Origin: Sphingobacteriales bacterium
GTDB taxonomy: Bacteria > Bacteroidota > Bacteroidia > CAILMK01 > JAAYUY01
Assembly: GCA_012517435.1 (NCBI GenBank)
Contig: JAAYUY010000164.1
Coordinates: 1-36,714 of the forward strand
Length of the DNA: 36,714 nucleotides
Reading direction: 5' to 3'
Shown: positions 3,215 through 12,495 of the stretch, in pieces
How the letters are laid out: each line of letters opens with the position of its first letter
How positions within the stretch are numbered: the stretch's first letter is position 1
Position numbers and translations under genes: made by a program
Notes under the pieces: model-generated
Told to the model about the DNA's origin: nothing
Seen by the model: the letters and a program-made list of their open reading frames with translations, nothing else
Database searches by the model: none

Positions 3215-4903
3215 ATGACATCTTTTACTATTTTTCTGAATCAAAAGATTCCTGTTCGTGATGGAATTAAATTATCTGCTTCGTTGTATTTACCTAAAGA
3301 TATTTCACCTACTTCGACTCTTTTTCTGATAACTCCATACAATGTCGATAGAAATCATCAACAGGCATCTTTTTTTACTCAAAATGGGTTTTCTGTATTG
3401 CTTGTTGACTCAAGAGGCAGAGGCAACTCCGAAGGAAAATTTAATCCATTTAGTCAGCAGGATGGTAGAGATGGATATGATGTTTGCCAATGGATTTCAG
3501 AGCAGAATTGGAATAATGGACGAGTGGGAATGTTTGGTGGATCTTACCTTGGAATGGTTCAATGGCTTACACTTAAAGAAAATCCCCCTGCTTTAAAATC
3601 AATTGCTCCTACCGCTGCCGTTTGTCCCGGAATTGATTTTCCCAAAAAAAATAACATTTTTTATTCTTATTTAGCTCCTTATCTCAGCTTTATTTATGGA
3701 AAAACATCCAATCCTAATTTGTTCTCTGATACAAATTATTGGGAATCTTTTTATTATGATTATTATAGCGGGAAATTCCCTTATTCTGAGTTGTTAAAAA
3801 AATCTTTTATTTCTTTTCCAAAATTCAATCAATGGATCCGTCATCCTTCTTTCGATTCCTTTTGGAAAAGCATTATACCTGACAATTCTACCTATGAAAA
3901 AATTAATATACCAATCTTAACAATTACCGGATATTTTGATGACGATCAGTACGGTGCATTATATTATTACAAAAATCATTTAAAATACAACTTTTCGTTT
4001 TCTAAAGAAAATCATTACATTATCATCGGCCCCTGGGATCATGCAGGAACAAGAGACCCTCAAAAAACGATTGATAATCAGTCGTTTTCTGAAACATCTA
4101 CACTTAATTTTAATAAAATCCATCTCGATTGGTTTAATTGGACACTCAATAATAAAGAAAAGCCGGCCTATCTAAATAATACTTTTATTTTTTTCTTAAT
4201 CAACGAAAATAAATGGTACAATTTTCATTTTCACAATAGTGATCTGTTTTCAAATAAGCAATTCTTTTTTCTTGGAAACAATGGAACACTAAATTCTGAC
4301 TCTGAAAATAATTGTGAGTACATAATTAATATCAATTCTCTCAAAACTAAATTCAATTCCCCGGACTTAAAGCTTAATACTTCATACAATTATGCTTTCC
4401 ATTATTTTGATTTTTCTTCAGACGATAATGAAATACTTTTTGAGTCTCAACCGTTTTCAGAACCTTTATTCATTGCCGGAAATGCAGAATTGAATTTATT
4501 TGTCAAAACCAATCTACCTGATTTTGATCTTGAATTTCTTTTATATGATAAAGACCCCAATAATAATCATTACTTTATTACCCGTGATTTTTTACGCTTT
4601 AGATATAGCAAAACACTTGAAAAATCTGAAATTAATAAAACACCTGATAAAATAAACAAAATAAGTTTCAAAAATTCTAATATAATTTTTAAAAAAATAC
4701 CCACTGGTCATAAATTGGTGTTGCATATCAAACATTTGAATCTGTCAGTTTTTCAGAAAAATTATAATACAGGAAAAGATGTTTCTTATGAAACTTCTAC
4801 AGATGCTATTAACGGTTGTTTAACAATATTTTGTAATTCAAAGTTCCCATCTTCTCTTGCAATCCCACTCTTAACTGAATTTTATATTAATGAAAAATTT
4901 TAA
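3215..4903 (+). CDS. CocE/NonD-family hydrolase (X-Pro dipeptidyl-peptidase S15-like)
   Basis: Alpha/beta hydrolase of the CocE/NonD family, whose members cleave esters, amides or Xaa-Pro peptides; the substrate is not predictable here. Visible signature: VDSRGRGNSEGKF (about residues 65-75), the nucleophile elbow GGSYLG with Ser110, an acid in GYFDDDQYG (Asp242 or a neighbour) and the catalytic His276 in GPWDHAG, in the order Ser-Asp-His expected. The C-terminal third (about 370-562) fits the jelly-roll domain of X-Pro dipeptidyl-peptidases (SQPFSEPLFIAGNAELNLFV). At 562 aa it is of usual length. Many relatives carry a signal peptide but this one starts MTSFTIFLNQKIPVRDGIKL without one, suggesting a cytoplasmic enzyme. 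Its last 14 bases overlap the start of the U32 gene, indicating translational coupling. Strongly AT-rich. Confidence 0.85.
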   Translation: MTSFTIFLNQKIPVRDGIKLSASLYLPKDISPTSTLFLITPYNVDRNHQQASFFTQNGFSVLLVDSRGRGNSEGKFNPFSQQDGRDGYDVCQWISEQNWNNGRVGMFGGSYLGMVQWLTLKENPPALKSIAPTAAVCPGIDFPKKNNIFYSYLAPYLSFIYGKTSNPNLFSDTNYWESFYYDYYSGKFPYSELLKKSFISFPKFNQWIRHPSFDSFWKSIIPDNSTYEKINIPILTITGYFDDDQYGALYYYKNHLKYNFSFSKENHYIIIGPWDHAGTRDPQKTIDNQSFSETSTLNFNKIHLDWFNWTLNNKEKPAYLNNTFIFFLINENKWYNFHFHNSDLFSNKQFFFLGNNGTLNSDSENNCEYIININSLKTKFNSPDLKLNTSYNYAFHYFDFSSDDNEILFESQPFSEPLFIAGNAELNLFVKTNLPDFDLEFLLYDKDPNNNHYFITRDFLRFRYSKTLEKSEINKTPDKINKISFKNSNIIFKKIPTGHKLVLHIKHLNLSVFQKNYNTGKDVSYETSTDAINGCLTIFCNSKFPSSLAIPLLTEFYINEKF

Positions 4904-6128
4904 TGTTGAGATAGCTGCACCAGTTGGTTCATTTGAAGGTCTAATGGCTGCTATTCAAGGCGGAGCTGATAGTATATATTTCGGGATCGATTCTCTTAAT
5001 TTGAGAAGTGCTTCATCCTTTAATTTTAAATTGTCAGATATTAAAAAAATTTCTAAAATTTGTAATAATCACGGAATCAAGAATTATCTTACACTTAACA
5101 GTATTATCTATGATGAGGAAATTAAAAAAGCAAAAAAGATTATCGATTATTCAAAAGATTTTATAAATGGTATTATTGTTTCTGATTGTTCCTTATTGGA
5201 ATATCTGAAAAATCTTTCCCTACCTGTCCACTTAAGTACTCAATTGAATATTTCTAATCTTGAATCTTTAAAATTTTTTTCTCAATACTGTGATGTCATT
5301 GTTCTTGCACGCGAATTAAGTTTGAAACAAATTTCATTTATTTCCAGACAAATCAAAAAACACAACATTAAAGGCAAATCCGGCAATATTATAAAACTTG
5401 AAGTTTTTATTCATGGCGCTTTATGTATGTCTTTTTCAGGAAAATGTTTTTTGAGTGAACATACGCACGGAAAGTCAGCTAACAGGGGTGAATGCCTTCA
5501 GAATTGCAGACGTCCTTATTCAATTATTGACGATCAAAATAATATTTTCAAACTTGATAATCCATATATACTGTCAGCAAAAGACCTTTCTACTCTTTCT
5601 ATTTTGGACAAAATAGTCAAAACCTCTGTTAGTATTTTAAAAATTGAAGGTAGAGGACGTAGTCCGGAATACGTTAAGACAGTTGTCTCAACATATAATA
5701 AGGCATTGTCTCTTATTAATAACAATAGTTTTGATAGAATCAGCATTCAAAAACTTAACGAAGATCTTTCCTCCGTTTATAATCGCGGTTACTGGACAGG
5801 TCATTATCTTTCAGAATTTGTTTCCGATTGGAATACAGATGTTTCTGGTTCAAAATCTAAAGTGATAAAAGAATATATTGGAGATGTTACAAATTATTTT
5901 AGAAAAAATAGTGTTGTCGAAATTTTTGTTAATAATAGCCAAATTGTTAATAATGATAAATTATTAATTATTGGAAATAAAACAGGTGTTGTTGAATTAA
6001 AAATAGCTGAAATTTGGTTTGAAAATTCAATCATTTTAAAAGCTGAAAAAGGAAATAAAATAACATTAAAATGTAATGAAATTGTACGCAAAAATGATAA
6101 GGTTTATAAAATTGTTTCCAGAAATTAA
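4890..6128 (+). CDS. Peptidase U32 family protein (RNA hydroxylase-type, Fe-S)
   Basis: Member of the U32 'peptidase' family. Characterised members such as TrhP and RlhA take part in prephenate-dependent hydroxylation of tRNA or rRNA and bind an Fe-S cluster, so RNA modification is likelier than proteolysis. Seen here: the N-terminal barrel start VEIAAPVGSFEGLMAAIQGG ending in ADSIYFG, the family signature near residues 175-206 (HGALCMSFSGKC, then RGECLQNCRRPY), and the four expected cysteines Cys179, Cys186, Cys202 and Cys206, then KIEGRGRSPEYV (about 251-262). The length of 412 aa fits the shorter bacterial type. It overlaps the hydrolase gene before it by 14 bases. It meets the convergent lipoprotein gene tail to tail: both stop codons lie in one TTAA at 6125-6128. 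Which RNA it acts on is unknown. Confidence 0.85.
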   Translation: MKNFNVEIAAPVGSFEGLMAAIQGGADSIYFGIDSLNLRSASSFNFKLSDIKKISKICNNHGIKNYLTLNSIIYDEEIKKAKKIIDYSKDFINGIIVSDCSLLEYLKNLSLPVHLSTQLNISNLESLKFFSQYCDVIVLARELSLKQISFISRQIKKHNIKGKSGNIIKLEVFIHGALCMSFSGKCFLSEHTHGKSANRGECLQNCRRPYSIIDDQNNIFKLDNPYILSAKDLSTLSILDKIVKTSVSILKIEGRGRSPEYVKTVVSTYNKALSLINNNSFDRISIQKLNEDLSSVYNRGYWTGHYLSEFVSDWNTDVSGSKSKVIKEYIGDVTNYFRKNSVVEIFVNNSQIVNNDKLLIIGNKTGVVELKIAEIWFENSIILKAEKGNKITLKCNEIVRKNDKVYKIVSRN

Positions 6129-7708
6129 TTTGTAATATTTATTTCCTCAATGTATTCCCAGTTTTCCTTAATATTAAAATCCTTTTTTACTATTTTAAAT
6201 AATTCGGGTTTTTTTAATGATTTCAAGTCTCCTGTGTCCCATTTTCCATTTCTATTTTCATCAATAAAATAAAAAATATCATAAGTTCCGGGATTAATAT
6301 TACTAATTGTTATATCAATGCTAACATTTGTCAATTTTATTTTTTCTTTTGTCTGTTTATTTTTTATTTCCAAAATCACATTTTTATTTGTCGGATTTTG
6401 TAATAATAGTTTTAATAATCCAAAATCCTCACTATTTTTTGTTTTAATATCAACATTTGTTGATTCTATTGCATCCTCACAAAAGATTATTGAATTCTTT
6501 TCTAAAACTATTTTATATTCAGTTCCGTTATTAAGGTTGCTTATTGTTAATTTTTCAGGATCAGTATTAGTAAAATTTATTTTATATTCTTCTGCAATTT
6601 TTCCAGCAGCATTTATTTTAATTAAGCTATCGCTAATTTCTTTGATTGGTTTAGTAAAATATATTTCAATCTCATTTATTAATGGTTTTATTTCCGAGAT
6701 TAGTTTTTTATTGATTGATTCTTTTGATCTTATCTTTCTTTGATCAATGATTATTGTGTCTTTTTTAGTATCATATTCAAATACAAAATTCAATTTATTT
6801 AGTCTATCAATCTGTTCGCAAATCCAACAATTAAATGAATCAGACAATTTATTATCACAAATTACTTGAAATTCTCTTGTAAAAAGAGAATCAAAAATTT
6901 TGTAATTCCTTAATATTACTGGAGAAGTAAATTTTAAGTAAAATTTATTTTTTGTTTTAACATAATAATCATTAAGCCTGATTTCTTCCTGATTCCTGAA
7001 TAAATTCAATTCTATGTATTCAGAATGATTATTCGGTTTATCTGAACTGACGAAATCAAATCTTTCATCATTATCTACTATTTGGTTTTTATTCTTGTCA
7101 TCTAATGCCAAAATAAAATTGTAATCATTAGAAATATTGTATAAATTAAACTTTCCGTTTTTTTCGCTTACGGTTAATCCAACAATGTTTTCCTTCTTTA
7201 TTTTTCCATTGAAACCATCCGACAAATTTTCTTTTAATAAATATATATAAACATTTTCTAAAGGAACTTTTTCAATATAATCATATACCGTTCCTTCTAT
7301 TTTATTAGAATCAATATTTTGACTTTTTGAAAAAACATATTTAAAGCCTGATAGAGTGTTTCCTTCGTTAATATCTTTAATATTATTCAAAAAATTTATG
7401 GTATATGTTTGAATTTCATTTAAAGAATCAAGAGAAGGAAACTTTATTAATATCTTATCATTTTTTACTAAAAACTTGGTGTTTTGAACAGGTGGTGAAA
7501 TAATTACATCATTAGGATTTGCTATTTCAATTTTTTCACTCATTATTAATTTTATTGTTGTAGAAGAAAAATTAGTTGCACGGTTTTCCGGTATACATTT
7601 AATCACCTTTGGTGGTTCAGTATCTTTTGGGCCACCTTCAGGGGATCTCTGAACAGCACAATTTGAAAGAATTATTGCTGTCAGAAAAATAAATAAAAAA
7701 TTTTTCAT
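6125..7708 (-). CDS. Ig-like (Big_5/SbsA-type) domain lipoprotein
   Basis: Predicted outer-membrane lipoprotein of 527 aa. A signal sequence ends in a lipobox-like LSNC, making Cys17 the lipidated residue; Asn just before the Cys is not ideal. Then comes the stretch GGPKDTEPPKVIKCIPENRA, which I know from Bacteroidetes lipoproteins with a bacterial Ig-like domain (Big_5, about residues 31-125). A carboxypeptidase-regulatory-like segment follows (about 135-205, IEGTVYDYIEKVPLENVYIY ... GKFNLYNI). The rest is beta-rich, ending with DIFYFIDENRNGKWDTGDL, a calcium-loop-like repeat. It follows mnmG by one base, so it is the third gene of the ybeY-mnmG operon. Role not known; a surface or cell-envelope structural function is inferred. 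Very AT-rich. Confidence 0.75.
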   Translation of the reverse strand: MKNFLFIFLTAIILSNCAVQRSPEGGPKDTEPPKVIKCIPENRATNFSSTTIKLIMSEKIEIANPNDVIISPPVQNTKFLVKNDKILIKFPSLDSLNEIQTYTINFLNNIKDINEGNTLSGFKYVFSKSQNIDSNKIEGTVYDYIEKVPLENVYIYLLKENLSDGFNGKIKKENIVGLTVSEKNGKFNLYNISNDYNFILALDDKNKNQIVDNDERFDFVSSDKPNNHSEYIELNLFRNQEEIRLNDYYVKTKNKFYLKFTSPVILRNYKIFDSLFTREFQVICDNKLSDSFNCWICEQIDRLNKLNFVFEYDTKKDTIIIDQRKIRSKESINKKLISEIKPLINEIEIYFTKPIKEISDSLIKINAAGKIAEEYKINFTNTDPEKLTISNLNNGTEYKIVLEKNSIIFCEDAIESTNVDIKTKNSEDFGLLKLLLQNPTNKNVILEIKNKQTKEKIKLTNVSIDITISNINPGTYDIFYFIDENRNGKWDTGDLKSLKKPELFKIVKKDFNIKENWEYIEEINITN

Positions 7709-7709
7709 A

Positions 7710-9569
7710 TTATCTTCCTAAATGAACTAAAATAATAGATATATCGCTCGGAGACACTCCACTTATTCTCAAGGCTTGCCCAATCGACTTTGGTTTGATT
7801 TTATTAAGTTTTTCAACAGCTTCACTTGAAAGTGAATTTATTTTTTCATATTTTATGTTATCTGGAATTTTAATTTCTTCCATTTTATTCATTTTTTTTA
7901 CTAATTCTTCTTCCTTTTCTATATAGGATTTGTATTTTGCTTGAATTTCAAATTCTTTTATTGAATCATTTTTAAAATTTTCTAAAAATGTCGAAATTTC
8001 ATTAATTTCTCTTAAATCTTCAATTGATATTTCTGGTCTTAAAAGAATATTTATCCATTTTGTACTCTGTGTTATTGTTTTTGTCCCTTTTTTAATCAGA
8101 ACTTTATTTACTATTTCTGGATCACAAGACTGAGAGACAAAAAATGTGTTAATTTTTTCAATTTCATTAATTTTGTTGCTAATTTTTTCAATTCTTTCTT
8201 TCCCAATCAATCCTATATTGTATGACAGGGGTGTTAATCTGATGTCTGCATTGTCTTGCCTTAACAATATTCTATATTCAGCCCTTGACGTAAACATTCT
8301 GTATGGTTCATCAGTTCCTTTTGTAATTAAATCATCTATTAATACTCCAATATAAGCATCAGATCTTTTTAAAATAAAGGATTGTTTATTATTAATTTTT
8401 AAATGTGCGTTTATACCTGCTATTATTCCCTGTGCTGCTGCCTCTTCATAACCAGTAGTTCCATTTATTTGACCGGCAAAAAATAAATTTTCAACTTTTT
8501 TTGACTCTAATGAGTGTGATAATTGTGTGGGATCGAAATAATCATATTCAATGGCATAGCCTGGCCTGAATATTTTCACTTTTTCAAGTCCTCTTATTTT
8601 TTTTAAAGCTTTATACTGTATTTCCAGTGGTAAGGATGAAGAAAAACCGTTTAAATAAAATTCAATAGTATTCCAACCTTCAGGTTCCAAAAAAAGTTGA
8701 TGTCTATCCCTATTTGAAAATCTTTTAATCTTGTCTTCTATAGATGGGCAATATCTAGGACCAATTCCTTTTATCACTTCATTAAATAATGGTGAAAACT
8801 TAAAACCACTTTCCAATATTTCATGAACTTCAGAATTTGTATATGTAATATAACAAGGTAATTGATTTTTTATGGGCTCAGTAAAATCAGAAAAAGAGAA
8901 TTTTTCTGGAAATTCATCACCATTTTGAATTTCCATTTTTTTAAAATTTACACTCCTTCCGTCTATTCTTACCGGTGTTCCGGTCTTCATTCTTCCAAAT
9001 TCAATTCCATATCTTGAAATTTTTTCTGTAAAACTATTTACAGATTTTTCTCCTAATCTACCTCCACTTAAAATTGTATTGCCAATAAATATTTTACCGT
9101 TTAAAAAAGTTCCTGTTGTTAATACAATTGCTTTTGAATAGAAAATTTTTCCCATTGAAGTAATAACACTCTTTACTTTATCATTTTTTACAACTATATC
9201 AACAACAGAATCTTGCCAGAAATAAATATTTTTATTTTCTTCAAGATTTTTTCTCCAAATCTGACTAAACAACAGTCTATCATTCTGTGTACGAGGACTC
9301 CACATAGCAGGTCCTTTAGATTTGTTTAGCATTCTAAATTGAATAGTAGATAAATCTGAAACTATACCTGAATAACCTCCCAATGCATCTATTTCACGAA
9401 TAATTTGTCCTTTTGCAATTCCTCCCATGGAAGGATTACAAGACATTTGAGCAAAGTTTTGCATATTAAGAGTAATCAATAATACTTTTGATCCTAAATT
9501 TGCTGCTGCCATTGCAGCTTCACAACCGGCATGGCCTCCTCCGACAACAATTATATCATAATTTTTCAT
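7710..9569 (-). CDS. mnmG: tRNA uridine-5-carboxymethylaminomethyl modification enzyme MnmG (GidA)
   Basis: FAD-dependent enzyme that, with MnmE, adds the 5-carboxymethylaminomethyl group to wobble uridine 34 of certain tRNAs in the cytoplasm. Seen: the FAD-binding GxGxxG at residues 10-15 (VVGGGHAGCEAAMAAA), CNPSMGGIAKGQIIREIDAL, MWSPRTQNDR, RPGYAIEYDYFDPTQL, the GTTGYEEAAAQG motif, FTSRAEYRILLRQDNAD, and a C-terminal helical domain ending with LRISGVSPSDISIILVHLGR. At 619 aa it is complete. Its ATG overlaps the ybeY stop (ATGA, 9566-9569), and the lipoprotein gene follows one base after its stop. mnmE is not in the window. A parS site lies 12 bases upstream of its start. Codon use is strongly biased to A/T despite this being a core gene. 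Confidence 0.97.
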   Translation of the reverse strand: MKNYDIIVVGGGHAGCEAAMAAANLGSKVLLITLNMQNFAQMSCNPSMGGIAKGQIIREIDALGGYSGIVSDLSTIQFRMLNKSKGPAMWSPRTQNDRLLFSQIWRKNLEENKNIYFWQDSVVDIVVKNDKVKSVITSMGKIFYSKAIVLTTGTFLNGKIFIGNTILSGGRLGEKSVNSFTEKISRYGIEFGRMKTGTPVRIDGRSVNFKKMEIQNGDEFPEKFSFSDFTEPIKNQLPCYITYTNSEVHEILESGFKFSPLFNEVIKGIGPRYCPSIEDKIKRFSNRDRHQLFLEPEGWNTIEFYLNGFSSSLPLEIQYKALKKIRGLEKVKIFRPGYAIEYDYFDPTQLSHSLESKKVENLFFAGQINGTTGYEEAAAQGIIAGINAHLKINNKQSFILKRSDAYIGVLIDDLITKGTDEPYRMFTSRAEYRILLRQDNADIRLTPLSYNIGLIGKERIEKISNKINEIEKINTFFVSQSCDPEIVNKVLIKKGTKTITQSTKWINILLRPEISIEDLREINEISTFLENFKNDSIKEFEIQAKYKSYIEKEEELVKKMNKMEEIKIPDNIKYEKINSLSSEAVEKLNKIKPKSIGQALRISGVSPSDISIILVHLGR

Positions 9570-10006
9570 TTCAAAACTTTTGTTTCACGTGAAACATTTT
9601 TTATCAATTCATCTTCCCTTTTTCTCATTATTTTTATTTCTTCTGTCTCTTTATCATCATATCCTAAGAGATGTAAACATCCATGAAAAATAATACGTTT
9701 TAGTTCATTTTTAAATTCTATGTTTTCATTTTTTGCATTTTTTTTAATTTTTTCCAGGCAAATGTATGCTTCAGCTTCCACAATATTATCTTCATTATTT
9801 AGCTTTATTGTAATTATATCAGTCACATAATTATGTTTTAATAATTCATAATTTATAATTTTTATTTCCCTTTCTTTTAAACAGTGATATTTTAACTCCT
9901 TAATTTTCTTTTTTTCTTTTCTAAATGTCTCTTTTATGTAATTTTTAATTTTTTTTATTTCTTTTTCACTTAATTCATTCTCTATATCCTTGCAGAACAA
10001 TATCAT
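9566..10006 (-). CDS. ybeY: Endoribonuclease YbeY
   Basis: Metal-dependent single-strand RNase needed for 16S rRNA 3' maturation and ribosome quality control. The signature helix is present as IFHGCLHLLGYDD with His108 and His112. The third metal ligand, His in the E. coli motif HGxLHLxGYDH, is Asp118 here; I believe this replacement is common in Bacteroidetes. The following ETEEIKIMRKREDE also fits. Length 146 aa is normal. The protein is extremely rich in Lys, Glu and Ile and the gene is among the most AT-rich in the window. Its tail (NVSRETKVLK) lies outside the conserved domain and is dictated by the parS site at 9581-9596. It overlaps mnmG by four bases and is divergent from the pseudouridine synthase gene. 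Confidence 0.92.
   Translation of the reverse strand: MILFCKDIENELSEKEIKKIKNYIKETFRKEKKKIKELKYHCLKEREIKIINYELLKHNYVTDIITIKLNNEDNIVEAEAYICLEKIKKNAKNENIEFKNELKRIIFHGCLHLLGYDDKETEEIKIMRKREDELIKNVSRETKVLK
9581..9596. promoter_or_regulatory. parS: parS centromere site (ParB-binding)
   Basis: TGTTTCACGTGAAACA is a perfect 16-bp palindrome and matches the general chromosomal parS consensus TGTTnCACGTGAAACA. ParB (Spo0J) binds such sites and spreads to form the partition complex used in origin segregation and SMC loading. It lies inside the last codons of ybeY, encoding the peptide VSRET, and 12 bases upstream of the mnmG start. Chromosomal parS sites usually cluster near oriC, so this window is probably in the origin-proximal part of the chromosome. 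This was the only CACGTG I noticed in the window. parA and parB are not in the window. Confidence 0.93.
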
Positions 10007-10125
10007 TTCTATTTATTTAATTTTTCACTTTTATATATTCTTTTATTTTTTCTTTTTCTTTTTAATCTTTTTTTCCTCTCATAATAGATAAATGACTTAT
10101 TTTCGCAATATAATTTTTTCATATT

Positions 10126-10839
10126 ATGACGCAGAGCAAAGTCAGAATAAACAAATATCTTGCAGCTTGTGGATACTGTTCAAGACGCAAAGCTGATGAT
10201 TTCATAAAACAAGGCTTAGTAAAAATTAATAACAAAGTTATTACCGATTTTTCATTCAAAGTTTCTATTCATGATGATGTTTTTGTTAATGGTGTTAATA
10301 TTAAACCTAAAAAACTGATTTACATTGTTTTAAATAAACCAAAAGATTATATTTGTACAGTATCAGATGAAAAACTACGCAAAACTGTTTTTGACTTGAT
10401 TGATATTCCGAAATCCGGATTATTTTCCGTTGGAAGATTGGACAGAAACACAACAGGTACTTTACTTATTACAAATGATGGTATATTAACACACAAACTT
10501 CTACATCCTTCATCTTCTATTATTAAAGTTTATCACGTTACTTTAGATAATTATTTACCTAATACTATATTATCAGAATTAAAATCAGGTATAACTATTG
10601 ATAATCGCTTGATTTTTTTTGATGAAATCTTTCCATTAAATACAGAAAATAAGAACGAAATAATAGTGTCTTTACATTCTGGTCAATATCATATTATTAA
10701 AAGAATATTTTCTAAATATGGTTATTTAGTAAAAAAACTTGATCGTATTTCTTTTGCCGGAATTGATTATTCTTCTCTAAAAAGAGGTGAATGGAGATAT
10801 TTAACAAAAAATGAGGTAAAATATCTTTATTCATTGTAA
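10126..10839 (+). CDS. RsuA/RluB-family rRNA pseudouridine synthase
   Basis: Isomerises a specific uridine to pseudouridine in ribosomal RNA. The N-terminal S4 RNA-binding domain is clear (about residues 5-50, VRINKYLAACGYCSRRKADD), followed by the catalytic domain with KPKDYICTVSD and the family motif GRLDRNTTGTLLITNDG, where Asp106 is the catalytic aspartate. TVFDLIDIPKSGLFSVGRLD is typical of the RluB/RsuA branch; between RluB, RluE, RluF and RsuA I lean to RluB but cannot settle it, so no symbol is given. Length 237 aa is usual. It is divergent from ybeY (119 bases between starts, pyrimidine-rich on this strand) and ends in its own hairpin terminator, so it appears to be a single-gene transcript. 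Confidence 0.9.
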   Translation: MTQSKVRINKYLAACGYCSRRKADDFIKQGLVKINNKVITDFSFKVSIHDDVFVNGVNIKPKKLIYIVLNKPKDYICTVSDEKLRKTVFDLIDIPKSGLFSVGRLDRNTTGTLLITNDGILTHKLLHPSSSIIKVYHVTLDNYLPNTILSELKSGITIDNRLIFFDEIFPLNTENKNEIIVSLHSGQYHIIKRIFSKYGYLVKKLDRISFAGIDYSSLKRGEWRYLTKNEVKYLYSL

Positions 10840-10871
10840 ACAACTCGTAAATTTCGTTTACAAGTTTTTTT
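10834..10871 (+). terminator. Intrinsic terminator after the pseudouridine synthase gene
   Basis: A perfect 8-bp inverted repeat (TTGTAAAC at 10834-10841, GTTTACAA at 10856-10863) is followed closely by T7 at 10865-10871. An alternative longer pairing (10842-10851 with 10857-10866, one mismatch) also runs straight into the T tract. The stop codon at 10837-10839 lies inside the left arm of the first pairing. Confidence 0.75.
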
Positions 10872-11192
10872 CTCATTCATTTTTCAAAAATTTTCACTTT
10901 TTAATTATTTTCTTAACACTATTTTAAATGCCATACATTATTTTACTAACATAATATTCCTGTTTTTACACCAGCATTTTTTCACAATTTTACTTTCAAT
11001 TTGTTTTGTTTATTTTTCACATCATCTTCATTTTCAATCATATTTATTCATCCTTCTTTTTTTTCATTGTTTATACATTGTTAACCTTATATTGTTTCAG
11101 ACATTTTCGAAAAGGATTTTTCAACATCCTAATTAATTAATACTCTTTATGTTCAAACTTTTTAAAATCGATTCATTTATGATTAATTGTGT
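10872..11192. other. AT-rich gene-free stretch before nusA
   Basis: About 320 bases with no credible open reading frame on either strand and no recognisable tRNA or riboswitch. It is very AT-rich and pyrimidine-rich on the + strand, with ATTGTT occurring three times near 11068-11100 and a weak 5-bp stem (AGGAT...ATCCT) near 11118-11132. It separates a terminator (ending 10871) from the nusA promoter and hairpin. In many bacteria rimP occupies this place; no rimP reading frame is seen. Confidence 0.5.
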
Positions 11193-11200
11193 TAACTTTG
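11193..11200 (+). promoter_or_regulatory. -7 promoter element (TAACTTTG) of nusA
   Basis: TAACTTTG matches the Bacteroidetes -7 consensus TAnnTTTG. Transcription would start near 11205, only a few bases before the leader hairpin at 11212. The -33 region has no clear TTTG, so the element is supported by the -7 match and position only. Confidence 0.5.
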
Positions 11201-11211
11201 CACCTTGAATT

Positions 11212-11232
11212 GGGGTGAGAACCCCTTTTTTT
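11212..11232 (+). terminator. Terminator-like hairpin with T7 tract in the nusA leader
   Basis: GGGGT (11212-11216), loop GAGA (11217-11220) and ACCCC (11221-11225) make a perfect 5-bp stem with a GNRA tetraloop, followed directly by seven T (11226-11232). This is the layout of an intrinsic terminator or pause site, placed 28 bases before the chosen nusA start (11260) and just after the predicted transcription start. An out-of-family start (GTG 11215) would lie inside it. It could act as an attenuator, a 5'-stabilising hairpin, or the terminator of an unseen upstream RNA. Confidence 0.55.
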
Positions 11233-11259
11233 ATGAATGGTTTTATTAAAAGTACAAAG

Positions 11260-12495
11260 ATGGATAAGAACGAAATTATAGAATCGTTTGCAGGATTGAA
11301 AGAATTGAAAAATATTGACAGGGCAACTATGATAAGAGTCCTTGAAGATGTATTCAGAGATGTTTTGGAGAAAAAATTTCAGGTAACTGAAAACATTGAT
11401 ATTATTATCAATGCCGAAAAAGGGGATGTTCAAATTTGGAGAAACAGAACTATTGTAGAAGACGGAAAAGTAACCGATCCTAATCTTGAAATTTCGCTTT
11501 CTGAAGCAAGAAAATATGCTGATGATTTTGAAATAGGAGAGGAGTTTTCTGAAGAAATTAAAATAAATTCATTTGAAAGAAGAGCCATACAAAATGCTAA
11601 AGTCAATCTTCAGAACAAATTATTAGATATTGAAAGGAATGATATCATAAGAAGATATCAGGACAGAATAGATGAAATTGTTACTGGTGAAGTTTACAGA
11701 GTTTGGAAAAAGGAAGTTTTGGTTTTAGATGATGATGGAAATGAATTGGTTTTACCAAAAGCATTACAAATACCGAAAGATTATTTTTCAAAAGGAGATC
11801 AGGTAAGAGCAATAGTTCATACCATTGAAAACATGAGTGGAATACCAAGGGTTATATTATCAAGAGTATCTCCGGTATTTCTGGAAAGGTTGTTTGAGCT
11901 TGAGGTTCCGGAAATTGCTGATGGACTTGTTAGTATTCGGGCAATAGTCAGAGAGCCTGGAGAAAGGGCAAAAGTAGCAGTTGAGTCTTACGATGACAGA
12001 ATAGATCCTGTGGGGGCATGTGTTGGTATGAAAGGGAGCAGAATTCATGGAATTGTCAGGGAGTTAAGAAATGAAAATATAGACATTATTAACTATACCG
12101 ATAATATATCCTTATATATTTCCCGTGCATTAAGCCCTGCAAAGACTGGACAGATAATTATTGATCAGGAAAGAAAAAGATGTCAGGTTTATTTAAAACC
12201 AGATCAGGTTTCACTGGCTATTGGAAAAGATGGGATTAATATAAAATTGGCTGCTAAATTAACAGGCTATGAAATTGATATTTTCAGAGAAGTGGATGAA
12301 GGAGATTACGATATAGAAATTGATGAATTTGCAGATGAAATTGATCCCTGGATAATTGATGAAATTAAGAATATAGGGTGCGATACAGCGAAATCAGTTT
12401 TGTCGATGACAGTTGAAGAGGTTGCAGAGAAAACAGATCTTGAGATTGAAACAGTTGAATATGTTTTCGAAATATTAAAAAAGGAATTTGAATAA
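11260..12495 (+). CDS. nusA: Transcription termination/antitermination factor NusA
   Basis: Binds RNA polymerase and nascent RNA, promoting hairpin pausing and termination, and also rRNA antitermination with NusB. Domains: N-terminal polymerase-binding part (about residues 1-125, IDRATMIRVLEDVFRDVLEK), S1 (about 128-195), two KH domains (about 215-345, with VGACVGMKGSRIHGIVRELR and SLAIGKDGINIKLAAKLTGY), and a short acidic HhH-like tail. The start ATG at 11260 (MDKNEIIESFAGLKELKNID) is chosen because other Bacteroidetes NusA proteins begin just before a similar I-DSF-KELK-IDR stretch; in-frame ATG 11233 and GTG 11215 would add residues lacking family similarity. Length 411 aa is right for the phylum. 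infB follows after 12 bases. The leader hairpin suggests possible feedback by NusA itself. Confidence 0.95.
   Translation: MDKNEIIESFAGLKELKNIDRATMIRVLEDVFRDVLEKKFQVTENIDIIINAEKGDVQIWRNRTIVEDGKVTDPNLEISLSEARKYADDFEIGEEFSEEIKINSFERRAIQNAKVNLQNKLLDIERNDIIRRYQDRIDEIVTGEVYRVWKKEVLVLDDDGNELVLPKALQIPKDYFSKGDQVRAIVHTIENMSGIPRVILSRVSPVFLERLFELEVPEIADGLVSIRAIVREPGERAKVAVESYDDRIDPVGACVGMKGSRIHGIVRELRNENIDIINYTDNISLYISRALSPAKTGQIIIDQERKRCQVYLKPDQVSLAIGKDGINIKLAAKLTGYEIDIFREVDEGDYDIEIDEFADEIDPWIIDEIKNIGCDTAKSVLSMTVEEVAEKTDLEIETVEYVFEILKKEFE

Follow-up and report, generated by a model that had tools for sequence, protein, structure and literature searches.

The locus described here raises the question of what a perfect 16-bp palindrome, identical to the parS consensus, is doing at the 3′ end of ybeY and just ahead of mnmG. 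The palindrome lies on contig JAAYUY010000164.1 of the draft genome of a Sphingobacteriales bacterium (GCA_012517435.1), of which a stretch of 36,714 nucleotides, referred to as the window, was analysed. Our reading of the sequence data, to which we give a probability of roughly 0.93, is that the palindrome is a chromosomal parS, a centromere-like ParB nucleation site, located ∼1.3–1.6 kb from the probable replication origin. The basis for this assignment is the perfect and single exact site, the presence of ParA and of a ParB with a parS-type helix, the adjoining switch in GC skew, and the conserved position of the site at mnmG. The features of the locus are collected in Table 1.

Table 1. 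Features of the parS locus, with positions and strands as in the window.
Feature	Position	Strand	Evidence
parS, TGTTTCACGTGAAACA	9581..9596	.	exact match, chance estimate, same place in relatives
mnmG (gidA), parS anchored to it across the class	7710..9569	-	TIGR00136, 822 bits
ybeY, rRNA maturation RNase, 146 aa, non-domain tail hosts parS	9566..10006	-	PF02130; TIGR00043 above cut-off
S4-domain pseudouridine synthase (RsuA/RluB/RluF type), syntenic in order relatives	10126..10839	+	
AT-rich intergenic gap (24% GC) from rsuA/rluF-like gene to nusA, probable oriC region, cumulative GC-skew minimum at 11169	10840..11259	.	
nusA, first gene right of the skew switch	11260..12495	+	

The sequence TGTTTCACGTGAAACA has 0 mismatches to the parS consensus of Livny et al. 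2007, as quoted in PMC10197239, and a scan of the window with up to 3 mismatches allowed returned positions 9581-9596 as the sole match. The number of exact copies expected by chance is 1.4e-5 per window, given the base composition of the window, and 1.2e-3 per 3.19-Mb genome. In the whole draft genome (3.19 Mb, 252 contigs, 97% complete), exact TGTTNCACGTGNAACA occurs once. The other 8 matches each carry 2 mismatches, a number near chance since the reversed control gives 5. Further parS copies could be present in sequence missing from the 252-contig draft. On the minus strand, the site provides codons 138-142 (V-S-R-E-T) of YbeY, preceded by the third base of codon 137. It lies beyond the Pfam YbeY domain, which spans residues 14-137, and ends 11 bp ahead of the mnmG start. 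ybeY and mnmG are co-directional, and the stop of the former overlaps the start of the latter (9566-9569). A preliminary description of this DNA had reported a perfect parS palindrome at this place, had argued that it did not arise by chance, and had located it at VSRET in the non-conserved tail of YbeY. All three statements are borne out, by the window scan, by the low expectation for both window and genome, and by the in-frame position of the codons beyond the Pfam domain; moreover, the draft genome contains one exact site and no scattered copies.

A ParABS system, which the same description took the palindrome to imply, is encoded in the genome in the form of ParA (L011:6706-7488) and a parS-type ParB (5797-6690), both on contig C207 and thus separate from the parS contig. 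parB is immediately downstream of the ParA ATPase gene and is followed by a small unnamed gene and by dapB-like and signal-peptidase-like genes, the latter two named from reading their translations. A profile search gave one ParB_N protein above the cut-off, and the best solved relatives of this ParB are Caulobacter ParB, Spo0J, and Noc. The Noc-binding site (NBS) is a ATTTCCCGGGAAAT-type sequence, and the core of the site in the window is CACGTG, not CCCGGG. No Noc protein was found in the genome, the sole ParB-like protein scoring 223 bits against the Noc model TIGR04285, under its cut-off of 315. ParB has residues R173, Y179, K184, and G201 (Caulobacter numbering), of which R173 and G201 form the pair that defines specificity for parS and not for Noc/NBS (Jalal et al., quoted on ParB). 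Both residues of the pair are present in 19/19 readable ParB loci out of 28; the other nine were without a motif match and were left out.

The site adjoins a switch in nucleotide skew. Plus-strand GC3 skew is negative in 8/8 genes up to 10839 and positive in 19 of the 23 genes from 11260 onwards, and the switch holds for genes of both strands, so gene direction alone cannot explain it. The cumulative skew has its minimum at 11169, in the 420-bp gap between the rsuA/rluF-like gene and nusA and ∼1.6 kb from parS. Because the skew changes sign before nusA, oriC is probably located in this gap. Its exact place we infer, since the DnaA boxes seen in this gap are all degenerate TTTTTCACA-type ones, without enrichment and with no convincing cluster. 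dnaA is on another contig. In three relatives (G003, G002, and G006) the skew minimum is in or beside the same rsuA-nusA gap, and in two more (G004 and G007) it is near the rsuA-like gene. For complete genomes of the class, skew was sampled at points spaced around the chromosome, and distances below 10 kb from mnmG are too noisy to place the exact switch. At this resolution the skew is positive on one side of mnmG and negative on the other in five of six genomes, which puts the origin near mnmG. The pattern is clear in G127, G155, and G085, and weak in G107 and G141. G049, the remaining genome, lacks an exact site, and no clear sign of an origin was seen at its mnmG. The window skew is local, and for this draft genome the chromosome-wide position derives from the complete relatives; on these grounds parS is probably near oriC, in agreement with the preliminary description, as the window contains the skew minimum.

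Several observations concern G049 and the gene order around the gap. At the mnmG of G049 (L187) there are two degenerate sites only, with 2 mismatches each, and a 1-mismatch site at 2151014 is close to another skew switch; the origin of this genome has perhaps moved. rimP precedes nusA in G006. Neither the window nor the gaps of its same-family relatives G003 and G002 have it between the operon leader and nusA (about 0.5 kb missing), and RimP_N had no match anywhere in the whole draft genome of the window. Directly ahead of nusA, positions 11212-11225 read GGGGTGAGAACCCC, followed by seven T. A similar GGGGAC..GTCCCC-T element is found in the same place in G003, G002, and G006, and is perhaps an operon leader or attenuator. 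Among words common to the rsuA-nusA gaps of four relatives, only this GGGG-loop-CCCC-T leader before rimP/nusA stands out. In two loci of same-family relatives (L173 and L174), a gene for a secreted-looking protein of 586 aa is present between ybeY and the rsuA-like gene; it is absent from the window. In the region surrounding the skew switch and to its left (window ∼4000-12000), the G+C content drops to 24-31%, compared to mostly 32-41% elsewhere in the window.

The position of the site next to mnmG is widely shared. We sampled 80 Bacteroidota mnmG loci and counted as a site any sequence with at most 1 mismatch to TGTTYCACGTGRAACA within 500 bp of mnmG. Such a site is upstream of mnmG in 62/80 loci, downstream in 42/80, and in either position in 66/80. 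The density of parS-like sequences is 1.70 per kb near mnmG versus 0.023 per kb over the remainder of these loci (73-fold), and the reversed control gave 0 matches in the 80 loci. In 27 relatives with few contigs we found 23 exact sites, spread over 15 genomes. Nearly all of them (21/23) are at most 1.2 kb from mnmG, and the other two, both in G129, are 61 kb away. The remaining 12 relatives have no exact site, and in several of them mnmG is accompanied by a version with one or two mismatches. ParB is far from mnmG in the complete genomes, and hence only the site, not the par genes, is anchored to mnmG. A literature search of limited reach found no paper stating a class-wide anchoring of parS to mnmG.

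The neighbouring genes bear on a claim of the preliminary description, namely that the site couples chromosome segregation to RNA modification. Stated as an alternative, parS would also be a local regulator, with loaded ParB altering the transcription of ybeY and mnmG. In its favour, the site is placed where two overlapping genes of the same direction meet, and in Pseudomonas aeruginosa raised ParB represses the promoters next to parS3 and parS4, according to the title of PMC5521831. However, in 23/80 loci no ybeY was found upstream of mnmG (contig ends truncate some of them), and the site is retained in 13 of the 23. The many sites downstream of mnmG likewise argue against this role, and conservation tracks the parS bases and not the position of an operator relative to a promoter. 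We regard such regulation as improbable. The coupling claim itself is not supported, as the site stays with mnmG with or without ybeY, on either side, and in any frame. Coupling is also not needed, because gidA (mnmG) is among the ten classical origin-associated genes (PMC2099444) and co-location is therefore expected. The spread of the site fits its retention as DNA close to a gene linked to the origin, and not a link specific to the operon.

What is conserved is the DNA. In the window and seven relatives of the same order the site overlaps the 3′ end of ybeY in all cases, and is read as VSRET, VSRGT, or VPRGT in six, as GFTWN in G006, and as CST-stop in G004, where the site supplies the stop codon. 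Flavobacteriaceae ybeY genes read it as MFHVEQ or similar, and in many other relatives the site comes after ybeY or no ybeY was found upstream. Across relatives it occurs in all three ybeY reading frames. Because the frame changes while the site stays, it is the DNA and not the peptide that is conserved, and the VSRET peptide, the conservation of which the preliminary description had left to be checked, is not conserved across Bacteroidota. As judged from these comparisons, selection acts on the DNA and fixes a few residues at the YbeY C-terminus as a by-product. In 143 conserved sites, positions 2-4, 6, 10-11, and 13-15 are invariant and the centre CACGTG is nearly so, as are the positions known for parS.

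The same 143 sites bear on an alternative in which the palindrome acts in RNA, as a hairpin or transcription terminator closing ybeY, and does not bind protein as DNA. In the transcript a stem of 6 bp with a loop of 4 bases can form, but this fold is no better than that of shuffles (z -0.15) and no terminator was called at the site. In addition, 36/143 sites have C at position 5 and A at position 12, and positions 1 and 16 are unable to pair in 39/143, while the CACGTG centre is nearly invariant. With its stem pairs often broken, a shuffle-level fold, and no terminator called, this explanation was rejected as highly improbable. Still less credible is a chance occurrence, or a conserved VSRET peptide of YbeY that happens to spell parS: VSRET or VPRGT-like tails do recur in several order relatives, but the expectation per genome is far below one exact copy, in other relatives this DNA encodes MFHVEQ, GFTWN, or CST-stop or is found outside ybeY, and the frame changes together with the 21/23 exact sites at mnmG refute it.

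For a chromosomal parS, established ParABS biology suggests how the site would work. CTP-bound ParB dimers would load at parS as clamps and slide onto the neighbouring DNA, here ybeY and mnmG. ParA would then move the ParB-DNA complex, and the newly copied origin would segregate first. parS can lie inside ybeY because few, non-conserved C-terminal codons are affected. The origin-proximal neighbourhood of mnmG is the place where the phylum keeps its parS.

SMC (TIGR02168, above cut-off) and ScpB (PF04079) were detected in the same 4 of 16 Bacteroidia genomes (G045, G049, G085, and G107). Both were undetected in the other 12, which are the genome of the window and 11/15 relatives, all five order relatives tested among them. 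This absence agrees with the available text of PMC10197239, in which no known condensin is reported for two Bacteroidota, and parS here therefore probably works without SMC-ScpAB, a call based on the SMC and ScpB searches. Since SMC-ScpAB is undetected in the genome, ParB probably does not load it. We tentatively suggest, at somewhat less than even odds, a wider pattern in which parS is fixed beside mnmG across most Bacteroidia and SMC-ScpAB is missing in most lineages, including that of the window, with ParB either segregating origins by ParA alone or recruiting an unrecognised condensin-like complex.

The parS site itself is standard and in a conserved place; its class-wide anchoring to mnmG, kept through frame changes and without SMC-ScpAB, may be useful to specialists. 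parS beside mnmG marks the Bacteroidota origin where dnaA does not always do so, and helps to place oriC in fragmented genomes. Furthermore, the ParABS centromere persists without detectable SMC-ScpAB, and the phylum can show the role of ParB-parS when that condensin is lacking.

Compared to chromosomal ParABS systems in general, the site is alike in its identical 16-bp sequence, few copies, adjoining skew minimum, and a parA-parB pair with parS-type residues. It differs in that parA-parB is not beside the site and that the usual partner SMC-ScpAB is undetected in the genome. Two Flavobacteriaceae papers, in the parts available, likewise assign oriC next to mnmG by Ori-Finder and skew, for Mariniflexile litorale and Algorimicrobium (PMC11278836, PMC12843772), and make no mention of parS sites there. 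In Mariniflexile litorale dnaA did not align with the skew (PMC11278836), and one figure legend of the Mariniflexile paper is at odds with its own text, labelling mnmG as ter. In contrast to these origins, as far as the accessible text describes them, the skew switch of the window lies across ybeY from mnmG, in the rsuA-nusA gap. Two Bacteroidota, Bacteroides caecimuris and Muribaculum intestinale, are among the gut bacteria of a Hi-C study (PMC10197239), the available text of which does not name the gene next to their parS sites. According to that text these two resemble the present case in having parS at ori and no known condensin, and in that study parS clusters mark an ori that is not always at dnaA.
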